Shown here piece after piece: positions 31,878-48,024 of a stretch of 64,000 nucleotides of DNA. The stretch is taken from positions 1-64,000 of the forward strand of contig JANQMN010000040.1 in NCBI GenBank assembly GCA_028280065.1. Reading direction: 5' to 3'. This DNA is from Hahella sp. GTDB taxonomy: Bacteria; Pseudomonadota; Gammaproteobacteria; Pseudomonadales; Oleiphilaceae. Numbering within the stretch: position 1 is the stretch's first letter; each line of letters begins with the position of its first letter. Made by a program: the position numbers and the translations under genes. Under the pieces are notes generated by a model. The model saw only the letters and a list, made by a program, of their open reading frames with translations, did not search any database and was not told the origin of the DNA.

Positions 31878-34121
31878 TCAGAGTTGTCTATCGCCTATAT
31901 GAATCGAAAAAATCTTCAACTCTTTGACTTTCGGATACTCTAGCAGCTCGTTCTTGTCCCTATTTTTCAAATCGCTCAATGTCCCCACACTTTCTTCAAT
32001 CAGATCAAGCGTTTTCTGAACACTTACAATAAATTGTTCCGGTGCATCCACAGTTCCCATTAACCTTGCAATCGAATATATGCCCAGATCGTCCTGAATT
32101 AAATCGCCAGCCAATTGAATGGACTCGTATAACCATTTGATAACCTGTTCTGCTAAACCCACGGTGATTGCCGGGCTAAAATCCCAAAGAAGGATTGCAA
32201 AAGCCAGTTTAATATTAGGCCTGTAGGTGCGTAACATCGTTGCCTGGTCGTAAGCACTGGCGGCATTTAATGCTTTTTGCAGCAGTGAATGGTAATGCTT
32301 CTTGGTATAAGGAGCGCCGTCTTCCAGCCATCCGAAAGATATAAACAGTTCTTTTGCTGTTTTTCGGGTTACGCCTGTATGGTCCAATATTCTTTTATGG
32401 GGTTTCTCAAAATACTCAGGGCTTTGTTCTAACATTCTCTTGAAGCTGCAAACACAAAGCAGCCAGTAAATCGAACGATGGCCTGTGGGCGATATAGATA
32501 ATCCTTCCTGAAACTTCTTTATGGCTTTATTCAACAGATTAAAAACGTCGTCATTCGCATACCTGTTTTCATCTTTGTTTCTTCTGATATGTTCAAACGT
32601 TTTCATTGCTTTGCCAAGCAGCAGTATTCCATGTTCACAATAGAAATCTTCATCCATGGCGACACTCATGCTTTCAATAAAATTCGCTTCTTCTTCCGCC
32701 CTGTAAAAAAGTTTGCAGGATGCATTGTACGATGAAGCCTCAACGCCCAATTGGCAAAAAATCATCAACTTAAGTGTTCGGGCATTTAGGTTAGCGTGAT
32801 CGATGCTCAACGTGACTTTAAGAATATCGATAGCATCCCAGAAGCACCTTCTGAAAAACAAAACTTTAGCAATCTCAATACCCAACTGAGAATTCTGTGG
32901 GGTATTAAAGAACTTTTCTAGCAAGTTTTGACCCTTTGCCTTTTTTTCATACGCATGAGGAGTTTGAATCAGTTGCCTGCGCTTCATGGTTGATACCGGA
33001 TCGGTCCTGAGCAACTCATCTTTCATGATAGTGAAATCGAATTCCCAGTATAAAGTGCTCCAGAATCCGGCCAGCCACCAGGTATTTATCGATTCACCAT
33101 TGGACATGGTTATTTCATAAGGTTTCTCGCTGAAGATTATCCGTATGTCATTCACCAATATGCATAACCGCGTATAATCTGTCATTCTTATCATCGGATC
33201 TTGCGGAAGTTTCTCATGTAATATCGATTGCATGTATCCTTCCATTGCCGAAAAGGTTCCGGCAATGATTCCAATCGTCAACAGAATACGCCCCGAACTG
33301 AACTCAGAAAGCGCCCATTTAACAGAAATCTGATGGGCAATGGCGATTGAATTTCTGGCGCTTTGGCTGAAGAATGCCGGATGTTGCAAATTACTGCCTT
33401 TTACCTTTTCTCTCGGCAAATCAACATAAAAGCAAGTTGTATGAAATGGACAAATTCTAAGATCTTTGGATAGTCCTAGCTCATTTACGCAAATGTGCAC
33501 CATGCGCTTTAACCATTTCATCGCCTTATCGCCGACTAAGGCGCCTCGACTACTCAAACAGAATCCGATTCGCACGCCTTCTGTAGGACAAACATTTTGT
33601 TCGGGCCGGCGTATTCTTAGCAGTGATTCGTAATTCCAAGCCAGTCCGAGTTCCGGGCGATGATAACCGAGCCAGAAGCTCAATAAACGAACCGTATTTC
33701 GCTTTATATTGGTGTTGATAGATTCATGGCCAAGCCTGCTGAACATGGCGTTACTCACCTTTCCGGAAGGGACCAGTTCTCCGAGATCATATTCTTTGAT
33801 AAGACGATTAATCGATATGGTAAGTGCCCTGGTAGACATGTTTATCGCGTGCTTGTTTTTTAAGAAACCGGTGAATGTCAAATCTTCCGGAGGCACACAA
33901 TCTTCCGGTTGTCGGCTGTTGTCTTGTAAAAAGGCTTCAAAGGCTTTTTCGCTTTTGTCCTTAATAAGGTCGTTAGCCGCCGCTATTTGTACAAATTGCT
34001 CGATAGAGTTGGTTTCATTTTCGACAAAACTCAAATAAGCGTCGGTTGTCGGAAAAACAGCAAGTAGTGCATTTTTGATCTTTTCCTTTTGAGTAATGTT
34101 TAAATCCGCTTTTTTGTGCAT
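31878..34121 (-). CDS. Large protein of unknown function (747 aa), possible effector-associated N-domain
   Basis: I do not recognise this protein as a whole. Residues 5-70 ('NITQKEKIKNALLAVFPTTDAYLSFVE' and on) weakly resemble the helical effector-associated domains that recruit partners in bacterial conflict proteins; this is impression only. The middle (about 150-350) has a Cys/His-containing stretch ('DLRICPFHTTCFYVD') and a hydrophobic 'GRILLTIGIIAGTFSAMEGYM'. Residues about 400-640 look like irregular TPR/helical repeats. No signal peptide, nuclease, protease or NTPase signature is visible. It is a single gene, divergent from the 1485-residue secreted protein across the hairpin-rich region, with an 8 bp inverted repeat 70 bp before its start. 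Confidence 0.7.
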   Translation of the reverse strand: MHKKADLNITQKEKIKNALLAVFPTTDAYLSFVENETNSIEQFVQIAAANDLIKDKSEKAFEAFLQDNSRQPEDCVPPEDLTFTGFLKNKHAINMSTRALTISINRLIKEYDLGELVPSGKVSNAMFSRLGHESINTNIKRNTVRLLSFWLGYHRPELGLAWNYESLLRIRRPEQNVCPTEGVRIGFCLSSRGALVGDKAMKWLKRMVHICVNELGLSKDLRICPFHTTCFYVDLPREKVKGSNLQHPAFFSQSARNSIAIAHQISVKWALSEFSSGRILLTIGIIAGTFSAMEGYMQSILHEKLPQDPMIRMTDYTRLCILVNDIRIIFSEKPYEITMSNGESINTWWLAGFWSTLYWEFDFTIMKDELLRTDPVSTMKRRQLIQTPHAYEKKAKGQNLLEKFFNTPQNSQLGIEIAKVLFFRRCFWDAIDILKVTLSIDHANLNARTLKLMIFCQLGVEASSYNASCKLFYRAEEEANFIESMSVAMDEDFYCEHGILLLGKAMKTFEHIRRNKDENRYANDDVFNLLNKAIKKFQEGLSISPTGHRSIYWLLCVCSFKRMLEQSPEYFEKPHKRILDHTGVTRKTAKELFISFGWLEDGAPYTKKHYHSLLQKALNAASAYDQATMLRTYRPNIKLAFAILLWDFSPAITVGLAEQVIKWLYESIQLAGDLIQDDLGIYSIARLMGTVDAPEQFIVSVQKTLDLIEESVGTLSDLKNRDKNELLEYPKVKELKIFSIHIGDRQL

Positions 34122-34190
34122 GAAACTACATCCCTTGGTTCGTGCCCCATAACAAATGTCTTCAGATAGTGTTTTATACAGAGTATTTGA

Positions 34191-34227
34191 GTTAGTAAGC
34201 TGGACTTAAATCAACGAAGTTACTAAC
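34191..34227. promoter_or_regulatory. Inverted repeat upstream of the 747-residue protein gene
   Basis: GTTAGTAA (34191-34198) and TTACTAAC (34220-34227) are perfect 8 bp arms, 21 bases apart (about three helical turns centre to centre). They lie 70-106 bp upstream of the minus-strand start at 34121, a usual place for an operator. No second copy was noticed. Confidence 0.4.
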
Positions 34228-34466
34228 GCCGCATCTAAAAAAAGCACATCACCAGAAAACTATTCGCCGGTGCCGTAAATTTTGTGTAATTCCATATTGA
34301 AAAGATCTATTAGTGATACTTCGTCAAATGAGGCAATTGGTTCAGCCTGTAGTCAATGGCCGTCGGTGTTTTCCCATCTTTGACATCGGCCTCTCTCAAT
34401 ATGGCCAGCCTCGGTGTAAAACACTCTCTGTTTTATAGTGATCCATTAATTTAACTGAAAAGCATG

Positions 34467-34697
34467 AACACCTAAGGTGTTTCAGGGTTTCCCTGATATA
34501 GAGTATGTAATTGATTCGGTAGATAGTTCTCATCCAGAAACTGAAGTTTATGAGTGAGAACTAACATGGCACATGGAAGTGCCATCAAAATCGATAGCTT
34601 AAGCTATTGATTTTGCGAGAAACTAAAAATCGCAATTTTTAGTTTCGACTACGCGAAACGCCAAGGATGGCGTTTCAGGATGAAAACTAGATAGTTC
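34467..34697. repeat. Chain of at least six hairpins in a divergent intergenic region
   Basis: From left to right: AACACC/GGTGTT (34467-34481); TCAGGG/CCCTGA (34482-34496); GTTCTC/GAGAAC (34526-34561, with AAACT/AGTTT inside); ATGGCAC/GTGCCAT (34566-34585); a 30 base palindrome with 15 bp arms and one mismatch (34586-34615); a perfect 12 bp stem with loop CGCA (34619-34646); a perfect 9 bp stem with loop AGGA (34655-34676). Neighbouring hairpins nearly touch. GTTCTCATCCAGAAAC (34526-34541) and GTTTCAGGATGAAAAC (34672-34687) are inverted copies matching at 14 of 16. The 9-mer AGATAGTTC occurs directly repeated at 34521-34529 and 34689-34697. Two stems carry GGA in the loop. It could be a structured mobile element or a structured leader RNA for the gene at 34794. 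Confidence 0.75.
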
Positions 34698-34793
34698 CTT
34701 TAAGGCTTGATGGCGGCATCCCTGCGGCCGTTATTCTGGTTATAAAGTTGGCCGTAATGATGAACAGGACCTCGATTTGAAAAGGAGTGGATA

Positions 34794-37700
34794 GTGAGCA
34801 AATTCAAATTGGCTAGGCGGACCCTTCTAATAGTTTTAATACTTCAAAGTCTTTGTCTTTTTCATACTGATGTTTACGGTGCGATTGAGGGTAATCAGGT
34901 CATTGAGTGGGTGAAACCGATAGCCGTCATAGACGGCTGCGATACCCGTTTTGCCGCCAATATGTTTGATGATGATGAAAACACCATCTGGCAGCACTTT
35001 TCAGAGGAACGGCACTGGGTCGTCCTGGATATGGGGCAGTCCGTGGAAATCGGAATGATCCGTCAATGGCATAGAAGTACATTTGATACGGAATACGCTA
35101 TAGAAGAAATATATGTGTCGGATAGCTTAGACGACTGGGGCGATTCGATTGGGAGCATAAGAAGAATCCACAGGGAAGACCCAGGATGGAAAGAGGCAAC
35201 TTTAACGCCAAAAATAGGACGCTATGTCAAGCTTGTAACAGAGCTAAGCAGATCGCCCTATTTCCGGGAGATAAGATTTGGCGTTTTGCGAGATACAGAA
35301 ACGCCGGAACCGGCACCGGAAGCAAACACAAGTGCATGGGTGAAGGCGGTATCAGTGATAGACGGTTGCGATACCCGTTATGCTGGCAATATGTTTGATG
35401 ACGATGAAAACACTATCTGGCAACACTTTTCGGACGAACGGCATTGGGTCGTCCTGGACATGGGTCAATCTGTGCAAATTGGAAAAATTCGGCAATGGCA
35501 TAGAAGTACATTTGATACGGAATATGCAATAGAAGAAATATATGTGTCGGATAATTTTGATGACTGGGGCGCATCAGTAGGCGGCATAGGAAGAATCCAC
35601 AGGGAAGATCCCGGCTGGAAAGAAGCGCTCTTAACACCCAAAACCGGACGCTATGTCAAACTTGTAACAGAGCTAAGCAGATCACCTTATTTCAGGGAGA
35701 TAGAATTTGGATTGATCACCGAAACCAATCCACCGGAAGACCCGGAAGGCACTGCTGTCGTTACAGCCAGCAGCCTTTCAGTCGTTGATATTCAGGCAGC
35801 AATTAACTCACTTGAAACGCTTGGCGGCGGCACCGTCATCCTGCCATCAGGACAGGTCGATCATCAAAATACCGTTATTAATATGCCCGCGGGAATACAT
35901 CTCTTTGGCCAAGGTAAAGACTTAACCCAAATTCAAAATAGTGAAATCAGAGTAACGGGGGACAATGACCGCACAATATCTACGCGAATTTCAAATCTTT
36001 TCCTTGGCGGTTTCAGCCATATTCAAATGGTGCGGGTAGAAAACTTTCGTATTGACCACATTCACATAGAAACGCTGCATACCAACAATGATTACCAGGG
36101 AGCTATACGTCTGGTTGATTCTCACAGTGGTGTCATTGATACCTCAGCCATCCATTCGAATATGTATGGGATTAATATCATCAATCAAAGTGATCGCTAT
36201 GAGACAGATTGGGTTTCTGATACTTCTATTTTGTTAGGTAGTCCAAATGCCGTTTTTATTGAGGACAATGAATTTGAGCATTATCGCCATGGAACCGTTG
36301 GTCATGCCAATGCGCACTACGTTGTTCGCCACAATTATTTTCAAGGGGGGAATGACGGCCTGCCTCCTTCGCATGCTATTGATGGACATGGTGTGGGGTT
36401 CACTGATTCCAATACCGGGACAAGGCTTATTGAAGCTTATAACAATACCATCAGTGCCGAATACAACAATGAACCTTATGACTGGAAAGCCATTGCAATT
36501 CGTGCCGGTTCAGCCGTTATCTTTGATAACTACTTGATTGGATGGGATAACGGTATTGCTCTAACGCTTGATATGTATGACAGCGATGCGGACCACAATA
36601 ATACAGAGCTTTTCCCTCATGATATCTGGGTGTGGGACAACAGTGTCGATAATCCTGAACAGCTGGATGAAATGGTGTTTGTGACGAGCCAAATGAATGA
36701 CAGTCCTGATGGTGGCCATACTGGCGGTACAATTCCACGCTATTCCGAGGACTATATTCGTCTGGGGCAAGAGTACCATCTCAGAGCACCTGATTTGCTG
36801 CAGGATGGCTTTGCCTACACCCCCTATATGTATCCGCATCCCTACAGAACAGAGTATTCAACGCCGGATTCTGTTGTCCTGGTATCACCAGTTGGGCCTA
36901 TCGTTTCAACGCCGCCTTCGGACCCATCAGATCCGCCACCGGAACCTGATCCCGGCTCAGCAATTACAGAGAGTGAAAGCTTAAGCATCGATGATATTGA
37001 GGCTGCAATAGCAACCATCAGGAATCTAGGTGGAGGCACTGTTATCCTTCCGGAAGGAGAAGTTGATCATGGCGGTGCCCGTCTGGCTCTCACCGCCGGG
37101 ATACAGATCATCGGTCAGGGAGTGGAGAAAACCAGAATCCTGAATGCAAACATCTACCTTGACTCACGAAATGGAAACGATCTTGGCCATCTGACCCGGC
37201 TTTCAGGGGTGTATCTCGGAGAAACAAGCACTATTGAATTTCGTGAAGTGGAGAATTTCAGAATTGACCACATTCATCTTGAAAGAACCGGCGGTCAGGG
37301 AGTGATCCTGCGTGATTCGACAAGAGGCGTCATTGACAATAGTTACTTTGATACAACTAACTACGGCATTATGGTCACGACCATGGGAAATCTGGCCGAT
37401 GACTGGAATGCCGATACGCAGGCGGTGCTGCAGCAGACAACCGCAGGCGATTCGATCTTTATCGAAAATTGTGAGTTCATCAACTATCACCACGCTTTGG
37501 TCGGTCATAACAATGGCCGCTACGTTGCCCGTTATAATACCTTTCACGGCGGTAACCGAGGGAATCAACCGAGCCATCCGATTGATGCACACGGTGACTT
37601 CTATGCCGGCGATATGGGCACAAGGCTGATTGAAGTCTACAACAACCTTATCTCCGCATCGGACAATACCCTGGGTCAGGCCTGGAAGGCCATCGCGGTT

Positions 37701-39251
37701 CGTGGCGGTGCTGCCATTATTTTTAACAATACTTACCAGGATTGGCGGAATGGCGTCGTTCTAACACTTGATAGTCATAACGATGAAAATGACACACCTG
37801 AAAACAGGCAAACCTGGCCGAAGGATATTTGGATTTGGGATAACACCTATCAAATGGATGTTTTGAACGAGAACCATTGGGAATCCTATGTTTTCAGAAC
37901 AAATGACATGAATGGTCATGGCTACCTCAACTCGTTTGAGGAGATTATCGAAAACGAGCAATTCTTTTTGCGGGCGCCAAACCTTAGCGATGACGGATTC
38001 GAGTACAACCCATACACCTATCCTCACCCAATTCGATCTTTAGAAAGCGAAACAGATGGCAATAACGATTCAGGGTCTTCGGGTTCCGGAGAGGCAAGTG
38101 GCGGAAACGAATCAGGACAGGAAACAATCCGGCCTGGTGCCTACTATGGCCCTAAGAGCACCGATGGAATAAAGATCATTGCGGACCACCGCATCGTGGA
38201 TGACTTTGCCAAAATTCCTGACGAGTATCTTGATATCGTCAAAACCTACTGGGTGCAGGCGCTTGGTGAATCACATTCTGCCATTTTCCGCTATGGTGTT
38301 GAATCGCTTGCTTTAGAAGAGCCGCGCTATAAGGCAACGAGACAAGAGTATGGAGATGCGCCTTATCCAGTCAACCCTGATCAATATGGCCTTCGCGTAA
38401 ACCGTATTTATTGGGATAAATACCGAAGTAACGATGATCCGGACGTCACCGGAAACTGGGATCAGCTAAGAGGAACCACAACGTTAGAGGCGCTTCAAAG
38501 CAAAAGACCGTTTGGAATCAGTGAAGAGGAGTTCTGGACCACCCAATGGGCGGTTGATTACATGAAGGAAAATATCCGTGGATCGAACGACCCTCTTCGT
38601 GGAAACAACCCCGTTAAAGCGATTCTCTTTGTTACCGGTTGGCATATCGCCACTGGAACCGGAGGCACTACCGACCCTGTTCATGGAACCCGTTGGGGGG
38701 GACGAAGCTTCTATTTTGACAGCGAAACCCGGAATTTCGTCACCGCCTATAGTGAAACAAGAAACTGGGGGCTTACAGATGAGCATTTGGCGTATGTCGA
38801 TCCAAATGGTACCAGGCAACATCCCGTAGCCCTTACCGATATGATCAAAGCCGTAGAGCAATTGAATGGCGTTGACTTAAATACGGTTGTCATGCTTACC
38901 ACCGATGCAGTTGATGTCAACGGATCTGTCAATACCGGTGAAAGTGGCTACCAGCGGTTCCTGAAGCATGAGTACATGAGACAATACGTTCAAGACAACG
39001 GCGGTGTCCTTTTCGATATGGCAGACATCCTTTCTTACAATAACGCCGGAGAGCACGCGCTGTTAACCTGGACGAACCGTCATGGTAATGAGGTTGAATT
39101 TCCTACAATTCATCCCGACAACGATGGTGAGTATAGGGGAACGGATGGTATTGAATCTCTTAGCTGTCACATTGGAAGAGAGGGTAGTATTCGTGTAGCC
39201 AAGGCTCTATGGTGGACGTTGGCGCGTCTTGCCGGCTGGGATGGTATGTAA
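34794..39251 (+). CDS. Secreted multidomain protein: two discoidin-like repeats, two beta-helices, SGNH-like C-terminus
   Basis: GTG 34794 has AAGGAG just upstream. Residues 1-30 are a signal peptide. Two 143-residue repeats (about 39-170 and 182-313) share 'VIDGCDTR', 'MFDDDENTIWQHF' and 'HWVVLDMGQSV' and resemble F5/8 C (discoidin-type) sugar-binding modules. Two pectate-lyase-like right-handed beta-helices follow (about 325-700 and 725-1080), each opening with 'LGGGTVILP' and containing 'NFRIDHIHIE'-type rungs and 'YNNTISA'. A Ser/Gly linker leads to a last domain (about 1112-1485) with 'QALGESHSAIFRYG' near 1156 and 'SCHIGREG' near 1457, which could be the Ser and His of an SGNH-like esterase. 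A polysaccharide-active role (lyase plus deacetylase) is inferred. No anchor or sorting tail is seen. Confidence 0.8.
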   Translation: MSKFKLARRTLLIVLILQSLCLFHTDVYGAIEGNQVIEWVKPIAVIDGCDTRFAANMFDDDENTIWQHFSEERHWVVLDMGQSVEIGMIRQWHRSTFDTEYAIEEIYVSDSLDDWGDSIGSIRRIHREDPGWKEATLTPKIGRYVKLVTELSRSPYFREIRFGVLRDTETPEPAPEANTSAWVKAVSVIDGCDTRYAGNMFDDDENTIWQHFSDERHWVVLDMGQSVQIGKIRQWHRSTFDTEYAIEEIYVSDNFDDWGASVGGIGRIHREDPGWKEALLTPKTGRYVKLVTELSRSPYFREIEFGLITETNPPEDPEGTAVVTASSLSVVDIQAAINSLETLGGGTVILPSGQVDHQNTVINMPAGIHLFGQGKDLTQIQNSEIRVTGDNDRTISTRISNLFLGGFSHIQMVRVENFRIDHIHIETLHTNNDYQGAIRLVDSHSGVIDTSAIHSNMYGINIINQSDRYETDWVSDTSILLGSPNAVFIEDNEFEHYRHGTVGHANAHYVVRHNYFQGGNDGLPPSHAIDGHGVGFTDSNTGTRLIEAYNNTISAEYNNEPYDWKAIAIRAGSAVIFDNYLIGWDNGIALTLDMYDSDADHNNTELFPHDIWVWDNSVDNPEQLDEMVFVTSQMNDSPDGGHTGGTIPRYSEDYIRLGQEYHLRAPDLLQDGFAYTPYMYPHPYRTEYSTPDSVVLVSPVGPIVSTPPSDPSDPPPEPDPGSAITESESLSIDDIEAAIATIRNLGGGTVILPEGEVDHGGARLALTAGIQIIGQGVEKTRILNANIYLDSRNGNDLGHLTRLSGVYLGETSTIEFREVENFRIDHIHLERTGGQGVILRDSTRGVIDNSYFDTTNYGIMVTTMGNLADDWNADTQAVLQQTTAGDSIFIENCEFINYHHALVGHNNGRYVARYNTFHGGNRGNQPSHPIDAHGDFYAGDMGTRLIEVYNNLISASDNTLGQAWKAIAVRGGAAIIFNNTYQDWRNGVVLTLDSHNDENDTPENRQTWPKDIWIWDNTYQMDVLNENHWESYVFRTNDMNGHGYLNSFEEIIENEQFFLRAPNLSDDGFEYNPYTYPHPIRSLESETDGNNDSGSSGSGEASGGNESGQETIRPGAYYGPKSTDGIKIIADHRIVDDFAKIPDEYLDIVKTYWVQALGESHSAIFRYGVESLALEEPRYKATRQEYGDAPYPVNPDQYGLRVNRIYWDKYRSNDDPDVTGNWDQLRGTTTLEALQSKRPFGISEEEFWTTQWAVDYMKENIRGSNDPLRGNNPVKAILFVTGWHIATGTGGTTDPVHGTRWGGRSFYFDSETRNFVTAYSETRNWGLTDEHLAYVDPNGTRQHPVALTDMIKAVEQLNGVDLNTVVMLTTDAVDVNGSVNTGESGYQRFLKHEYMRQYVQDNGGVLFDMADILSYNNAGEHALLTWTNRHGNEVEFPTIHPDNDGEYRGTDGIESLSCHIGREGSIRVAKALWWTLARLAGWDGM

Positions 39252-47649: not shown

Positions 47650-48024
47650 GCTTTTTTACGCTACTAGATTTTTAGCTGGCGGACAACAGAACAAATGTGA
47701 TGTTTGGTCAAATTAAGAACAGTTTAAGACCAAATAATATTTTAAAAAAGTTACATATCTATATGATTTATATATATTTATGGCCAGTATTGGTTTTATG
47801 AAGGACTAAAATTTCAAAATCGTAAAATTTCGTAAACGAATTTTTTAAGCGGGTTTTAAGACGTGGCAATTAAACTTTAGAATAAGGTTGTTAAGTAATA
47901 TTAAGATGTTTTTGATTGATCTTAACTCGCAGCACATCCTTGTGCCGCTACTGCTCAGAATGGTTTAGGCACTCTTGTCATTTGGTCATTTTCACTGTTT
48001 TTCAATATCAACCGAGCCTGGTTC
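47650..48024. other. 375 bp AT-rich gap
   Basis: Between the sugar-binding gene promoter and the end of the GH65 gene. It is very AT-rich (for example around 47740-47860) with no ORF, RNA gene or strong hairpin that I can support. It probably holds the far promoter region of the sugar-binding gene. Confidence 0.5.

Follow-up and report, generated by a model that had tools for sequence, protein, structure and literature searches.

A putative MITE superfamily with a conserved hairpin core, differing ends and CsrA-type loops in Gammaproteobacteria and other members of their phylum

What is the chain of contiguous hairpins that lies between two divergent genes of Hahella sp.? We examined it within a 64,000-nt stretch of contig JANQMN010000040.1, hereafter called the window. 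An earlier inspection of the letters alone (the sequence-only reading) had set two explanations against each other: a non-autonomous mobile element with target duplication, and a structured leader RNA of a secreted protein. The first was supported by our analysis; the second, as the identity of the chain, was not. The placement between divergent genes held, with long ORFs at 31878–34121 on the minus strand and 34794–39251 on the plus strand. One of their products has 1485 residues and F5/8 type C domains, and the other has 747 residues and no Pfam match at E 0.001.

The element is 161 bp long (34527–34687) and consists of five contiguous hairpins, with TAGATAG on each side. Its features are as follows.

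34520–34526, plus strand: left flanking direct repeat TAGATAG, same as 34688–34694; target duplication, 4–7 bp
34527–34687, plus strand: putative mobile element proper, 161 bp, five hairpins; 159.2 bits with the five-hairpin model (R2), a score that is not independent because the window copy is among the model’s 14 sequences
34527–34540, plus strand: left terminal inverted repeat TTCTCATCCAGAAA, pattern match with 0 mismatches; ISNCY-type end
34524–34563, plus strand: hairpin 1, which includes the left terminal repeat; arms 34524–34542 and 34545–34563, 84% complementary
34566–34585, plus strand: hairpin 2, ATGGCAC-ATGGAA-GTGCCAT, from the RNA fold; CsrA-type ANGGA loop, conserved in the family
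34586–34615, plus strand: hairpin 3, stem AAAATC...GATTTT, 15 bp, 93% complementary
34619–34646, plus strand: hairpin 4, 12-bp stem, 100% complementary; apical loop of the AA[UC]CRCRUU kind
34655–34676, plus strand: hairpin 5, 9-bp stem, 100% complementary; apical CAAGGATG, CsrA-type ANGGA loop, conserved in the family
34673–34687, plus strand: right terminal inverted repeat TTTCAGGATGAAAAC, pattern match with 0 mismatches; end common to ISNCY-family insertion sequences
34688–34694, plus strand: right flanking direct repeat TAGATAG, same as 34520–34526

The hairpin chain described by the sequence-only reading was confirmed, including its stems of 15, 12 and 9 bp; the element itself holds five hairpins, and a further pair at 34467–34496 lies outside it. 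These two adjacent hairpins have 6-bp stems, and the first is terminator-like on the minus strand. Inverted ends had been claimed for 34526–34687, and they are present (the 18-nt arms 34524–34541 and 34672–34689 are mutually inverted, 89%), with the element proper running from 34527 to 34687. A 9-mer had been described as directly repeated outside these ends. The direct repeat exists and is one base longer than that, as TAGATAGTTC (10 bp) is present twice, at 34520 and 34688. The left AGATAGTTC does not lie wholly outside the element, because the terminal inverted repeat begins with its TTC; the flanking repeat proper is TAGATAG. The foot of hairpin 1 extends 3 bases into this flanking repeat, and one pair of hairpin 3 was either G-U or A-U in every member of the 14-sequence alignment. 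The RNA fold of 34460–34710 reached −89.3 kcal/mol, compared with −54.0 (sd 4.5) in 200 shuffles (z = −7.9; 0/200 as good), and the opposite strand gave z = −8.7. Elsewhere in the window, 47882–47983 matched the five-hairpin model weakly on the minus strand (12.8 bits, E 0.03), perhaps as a decayed copy or perhaps by chance.

Further copies were found in the same genome, where the sequence-only reading had proposed to look by BLAST. A search with 34440–34720 gave 45 matches at E ≤ 10, with 20 places below 1e-3, the query’s own place included. The first covariance model, built from 8 copies, marked 23 places at E < 1e-3, and a hand-made consensus profile matched 21 of the fetched own-genome places at E < 0.01. 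The own-genome copies are mostly degenerate or truncated. Several of them (L006, L008, L012, L041) carry an extra GC-rich, GGATCGCCGGCCCGG-like module at the same place in hairpin 2. At E 0.01 the first covariance model found matches in 3 of 58 genomes: the element’s own, one of the same family (G021) and one of the same order (G051). Six congeners gave no match with this model, nor did the flanks of two own-genome copies match anything in them; no empty site was seen.

A scan for the pattern of the right end returned 25 stretches in named genomes. Eight of these matched the five hairpins at E < 1e-6 (one in Marinobacter, one in Saccharospirillum and six in Alkalimonas); some of the eight matches are partial, and full-length copies were found in all three genera. 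Four other stretches were parts of insertion sequences (L086, L096, L106, L107), and two enclosed other elements of 53 and 158 bp within the same ends (L108, L110); these classes cover 14 of the 25 stretches. The covariance search that had also been proposed was carried further with a second model, which covered all five hairpins and was built from 14 sequences. At E 1e-4 it gave matches in 13 genomes of the order (390 searched), 60 of the class (369 searched) and 44 of a phylum sample (398 searched), or 114 different genomes, with the own genome counted in each set and the best seven candidates per genome scored. Of the 44 bearing genomes of the phylum sample, 36 fall in a single family (f246), which may be Mariprofundaceae. 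At three loci (L066, L105, L200) elements stand side by side or in tandem.

The copies end in at least three ways, which we call ISNCY-type, IS5-type and GGAANCTCTGA-type. ISNCY-type ends, those of the window copy, also flank a gene for an ISNCY-family transposase in two deltaproteobacterial records (NCBIfam NF033593, 452 and 479 bits). One of these transposase-bearing elements, in L106, measures 1.70 kb; the other spans L107/L096, measures 1.68 kb and has TAGCTAG on either side. Elements of the window’s end type are flanked by TAGNTAG or a near variant; 7-bp identity was seen in 4 of the 11 elements compared, among them the Desulforhopalus insertion sequence and the window copy. The target itself seems to read TAGNTAG, which in those cases leaves the middle base as the sole informative one, and the duplication may therefore be anywhere from 4 to 7 bp long. 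A search of 38 genomes for the ISNCY transposase at E 1e-10 found none in the own genome or in G021, and gave partial matches in two other genomes. Because its own genome yielded no such transposase, the window copy is probably stranded there.

The hairpin elements of G051 end in CAGGCTGTTGAAA and TTTCAACAACCTG (IS5-type), and this genome also bears an insertion sequence with nearly identical ends and an IS5-family transposase (NF033581, 274 bits). By eye, four further places in G051 (L129, L132, L133/L134, L143) look like another subfamily of the same end type, its hairpin order resembling that of L059–L066. The GGAANCTCTGA ends are abundant in a 3.2-Mb genome (G543), in which they matched 265 times with at most one mismatch, as opposed to once for the reversed pattern. 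We examined 48 copies in G543 and dropped 10 whose right end was not recognized, some being hairpin 1 alone and others shortened or mutated; exact 4-bp direct repeats, mostly TTAA, TTAG, CTAG or CTAA, flanked 36 of the 38 copies with both ends. The G543 copies diverged from their consensus by a mean of 1.4%, indicating recent spread. An autonomous partner with GGAANCTCTGA-type ends was not found. The element is modular in this genome (L343–L382, L286–L310), occurring as a 153-bp five-hairpin form and as one of 205 bp in which additional sequence separates hairpins 4 and 5. Hairpin 1 also occurs by itself as a 28-bp unit flanked by TTAA repeats of its own (L360, L369, L375), and one form has hairpins 1, 2 and 5 (L378). 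A gene-carrying form at L313, seen by eye only as two neighboring ends around a toxin-antitoxin-like pair, was not accepted.

The proposal of a non-autonomous mobile element with target duplication was thus supported by copies elsewhere, by ends that match those of ISNCY elements and by flanking direct repeats. The element has terminal inverted repeats and target-site direct repeats, it is short, transposase-free and present in many copies, and it has its ends in common with autonomous insertion sequences, in other genomes for the ISNCY type and within G051 for the IS5 type. These are the marks of a MITE. Judged from its sequence, the window element is almost certainly a mobile element.

Next to these differing ends stands a core that does not differ in the same way. 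We built a structure-free profile from eight sequences of the window’s end type and searched it on 97 loci of the class and phylum sets. It matched 96 of the 97 at E < 0.01 (85 below 1e-5, best 2e-17), in a test that is not independent, as the loci had been picked by the second model, which contains the eight profile sequences. Shuffled loci gave 0 matches in 97. The matches covered the core and not the ends: in 97 of 101 the start was no earlier than model position 35, and 100 of 101 ended before position 165 of 169. When loci of G543 were found by their ends alone, 33 of 40 matched the same profile. We concluded that the core (hairpins 2–5) is very probably homologous across the superfamily, with the ends differing, and an exchange of ends is the simplest reading of this arrangement. 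We regard the whole as one superfamily of MITEs whose core is conserved and whose ends differ, present in Gammaproteobacteria and elsewhere in their phylum.

Several lines of evidence bear on whether the core acts as RNA. In the 14-sequence alignment both partners of a pair had changed in 105 cells, compared with 35.4 (sd 4.7) after shuffling (0/500 as high), where the structure was taken from the fold of one member and related sequences can exceed shuffles. Sliding the partner by 1–3 columns left 11–24 such doubly changed cells. In this alignment the compensatory changes occur in all five stems. Hairpins 2–5 were paired in 86–97% of cells and hairpin 1 in 55%, the latter value being low because the groups differ there.

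We then counted isolated stem mismatches by a rule that treats both strands alike. Among 104 elements there were 111 G-T, 14 A-C and 55 other mismatches. Addition of 28 elements of the phylum sample (one of its 29 matches, a minus-strand match in L326, was left out) gave 132 elements, which were reduced to 100 non-redundant representatives. These had 95 G-T, 19 A-C and 53 mismatches of the other eight types (p = 2e-13); both this count and the loop counts given below may be inflated, since the covariance model that selected the 132 elements has the GGA loops built in and favors G-U over A-C, and in both the related copies are not independent. An excess of G-T over A-C is what we would expect of plus-strand RNA. 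Taken separately, the G-T to A-C ratio was 9:7 in the 20 own-genome copies, 19:17 in the recent G543 copies and 21:11 in the phylum set (p = 0.11). This is most simply read as drift of single copies, with the RNA kept in the lineages that are still spreading. In G543, departures from the consensus were roughly five times as frequent at stem positions as at unpaired ones (0.016 vs 0.003), whereas structural constraint acting on individual copies would give the reverse; possible causes are hairpin-templated mutation and a mixed set of subfamilies. As inferred from the alignments and mismatch counts, an RNA-level function of the core is likely.

The strongest alternative is a plain MITE in which the hairpins serve needs at the DNA level, such as transposase binding, cruciform extrusion or insulation against read-through, or simply reflect descent, without any function as RNA. 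The clear MITE anatomy would be explained in this way, and so would the drift of within-genome copies, with no strand asymmetry. The element also has no orientation bias to its flanking genes (17, 17, 11 and 10 of 55 copies in the four arrangements, by a simple ORF caller), which suits the same explanation. Three results argue against it: the core has been maintained over large distances though the ends differ, G-T outnumbers A-C by 95 to 19 among the representatives, and GGA loops are maintained where the end consensus has no GGATG. We consider a plain MITE unlikely, but an explanation to be taken seriously.

A second alternative is that the hairpins form in single-stranded DNA of one strand, as in attC sites and the ends of IS200/IS605-type elements, and serve transfer or recombination. 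The structure is indeed strand-specific, and single-stranded DNA could likewise favor G-T, which is better tolerated than A-C in DNA as well. Against this, short exact target duplications and inverted ends suit transposition by a DDE enzyme. Moreover, a plasmid collection gave no match with three queries, a phage collection none with two, and in viral contigs the element was found at E 0.01 in none of 41 stretches with the hairpin-2 pattern; the one TIR-pattern match in viral contigs held no element at E 0.1. We regard this explanation as improbable. A leader RNA for the secreted protein of 1485 residues at 34794 is more improbable still: the element’s plus strand does lie about 100 bp upstream of 34794 in the same reading direction, but relatives of the copy sit in all four orientations to their neighbors, direct repeats stand on both of its flanks, and no sigma-70-like promoter was found in 34122–34850. 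Whatever its identity, the window copy may be transcribed within the leader of that protein.

We return to an RNA function of the mobile core, and to what might bind it. The sequence-only reading had pointed to two GGA loops of the type bound by CsrA/RsmA, and few features of the family proved to be as conserved. In the window they are CATGGAAG (hairpin 2) and CAAGGATG (hairpin 5), also given as CAUGGAAG and CAAGGAUG. Of the 100 representatives, 48 had exactly five hairpins, and a count by hairpin limited to these showed GGA in the loop, closing pair included, in 45/48 for hairpin 2 and 47/48 for hairpin 5, as compared with 3/144 for the loops of hairpins 1, 3 and 4. The motif CANGGANG was present on the plus strand of 87 and on the minus strand of 8 of the 100 representatives. 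The SELEX consensus of E. coli CsrA is RUACARGGAUGU, quoted with the CANGGANG loop in passages of PMC6692469 and PMC4894983. It was matched at 10 or more of its 12 positions on the plus strand of 44/100 representatives and on the minus strand of none; the window copy matches at 9. GGA loops are also kept in the groups whose end consensus has no GGATG, indicating that the loops were not copied from those ends. The 205-bp form of G543 has two potential further GGA-loop hairpins, GTCCACGGATGGAC and GCCCAGGGAGGGGC; its minimum-energy fold contains the GCCCAGGGAGGGGC hairpin and pairs GTCCACGGATGGAC otherwise.

We compared the occurrence of the CsrA gene in 40 bearing genomes, picked from the 114 for completeness and spread and including the own genome, with that in 40 genomes of the class sample for which no match was reported. 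The gene was present in 38/40 bearing and 31/40 non-bearing genomes (Fisher p = 0.048), and the two bearing genomes that lacked it are assemblies of 430 and 470 contigs. This co-occurrence agrees with binding of CsrA, weakly so because CsrA genes are frequent in non-bearing genomes too. From the shape of the loops we name CsrA as a tentative ligand of hairpins 2 and 5, an assignment that is plausible without being the expected outcome.

For the element as a whole, we somewhat favor a MITE with a homologous core, differing ends, an RNA function and CsrA-type loops. A transposase that recognizes the ends (ISNCY- or IS5-family) would move the element in trans, and lineages with exchanged ends would have come under another transposase. 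The plus strand, when transcribed, would act as folded RNA in which hairpins 2 and 5 could bind CsrA/RsmA-type proteins, so that transcripts running through a copy would carry a pair of CsrA sites. Such transcripts could titrate CsrA or fall under CsrA control. Because the copies have no orientation bias and no promoter was found near the window copy, read-through from outside the element is the likely source of this RNA. For the same two reasons, cis-regulation of host genes is not favored, and we find an action on CsrA in trans more plausible than the control of one neighbor. One could go further and picture a transposable CsrA/RsmA sponge, that is, a selfish, structured RNA cassette, spread through Gammaproteobacteria and beyond them in the phylum, which persists by changing its ends to suit any DDE transposase at hand, and whose core keeps at least two high-affinity CsrA loops that act on the host’s global switch for carbon storage, motility and biofilm. 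Both the cassette and this action of its core are speculative, and we would sooner doubt than expect them.

We looked for descriptions of this element elsewhere. No Rfam 15 family exceeded its gathering threshold for the window or ten other loci. At a low threshold the best match was OxyS, on the minus strand, with 23.9 bits against a threshold of 75, and we did not believe it. The element was not found described in the literature searched, and searches on CsrA together with MITEs, transposable elements or REP repeats returned no title on such an element. Bacterial MITEs are usually seen as remnants of one insertion sequence. The MITE as a kind is already known; what is new here is the long-lived structured core, its differing ends and its CsrA-type loops. 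The ISNCY and IS5/IS1182 insertion sequences (NF033593, NF033581) have their terminal repeats in common with two groups of the element, and differ from it in encoding a transposase, for which 161 bp is too short.

CsrB/CsrC and RsmX/Y/Z are host small-RNA genes. Each of their RNAs has several GGA-loop hairpins and sequesters CsrA, as set out in PMC4894983. The element differs from such RNAs in being a transposable repeat, usually with two GGA loops, for which no promoter was found. BOX, ERIC, REP/BIME and Correia are hairpin-forming intergenic repeats, BOX being modular as well. Their sequences and ends differ from those of the element, and none is known to have a conserved pair of CsrA-type loops. 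PMC10969869 and PMC4853749 make mention of BOX and Correia.

Among described elements, the nearest that we found are QMITE1 and QMITE2 of Coxiella burnetii, likened here by their description in PMC5896051. There, QMITE2 is about 170–190 bp long with direct repeats of 7–9 bp, and the QMITEs have terminal inverted repeats and a very stable predicted RNA fold, with some copies transcribed as small RNAs. Size, terminal inverted repeats, direct repeats and stable fold are thus alike. Unlike our element, QMITE1 is reported there to be without orthologues in other genomes; the passages considered describe no exchange of ends, and the paper does not use the term CsrA.

One core with several ends in many lineages, compensatory changes in its stems and near-constant loops point to a function that resides in the core. 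The RNA library searched lacks the family, so that many genomes probably contain copies without annotation. Should the loops bind CsrA, one mobile repeat could affect a global regulator in many genera at once.
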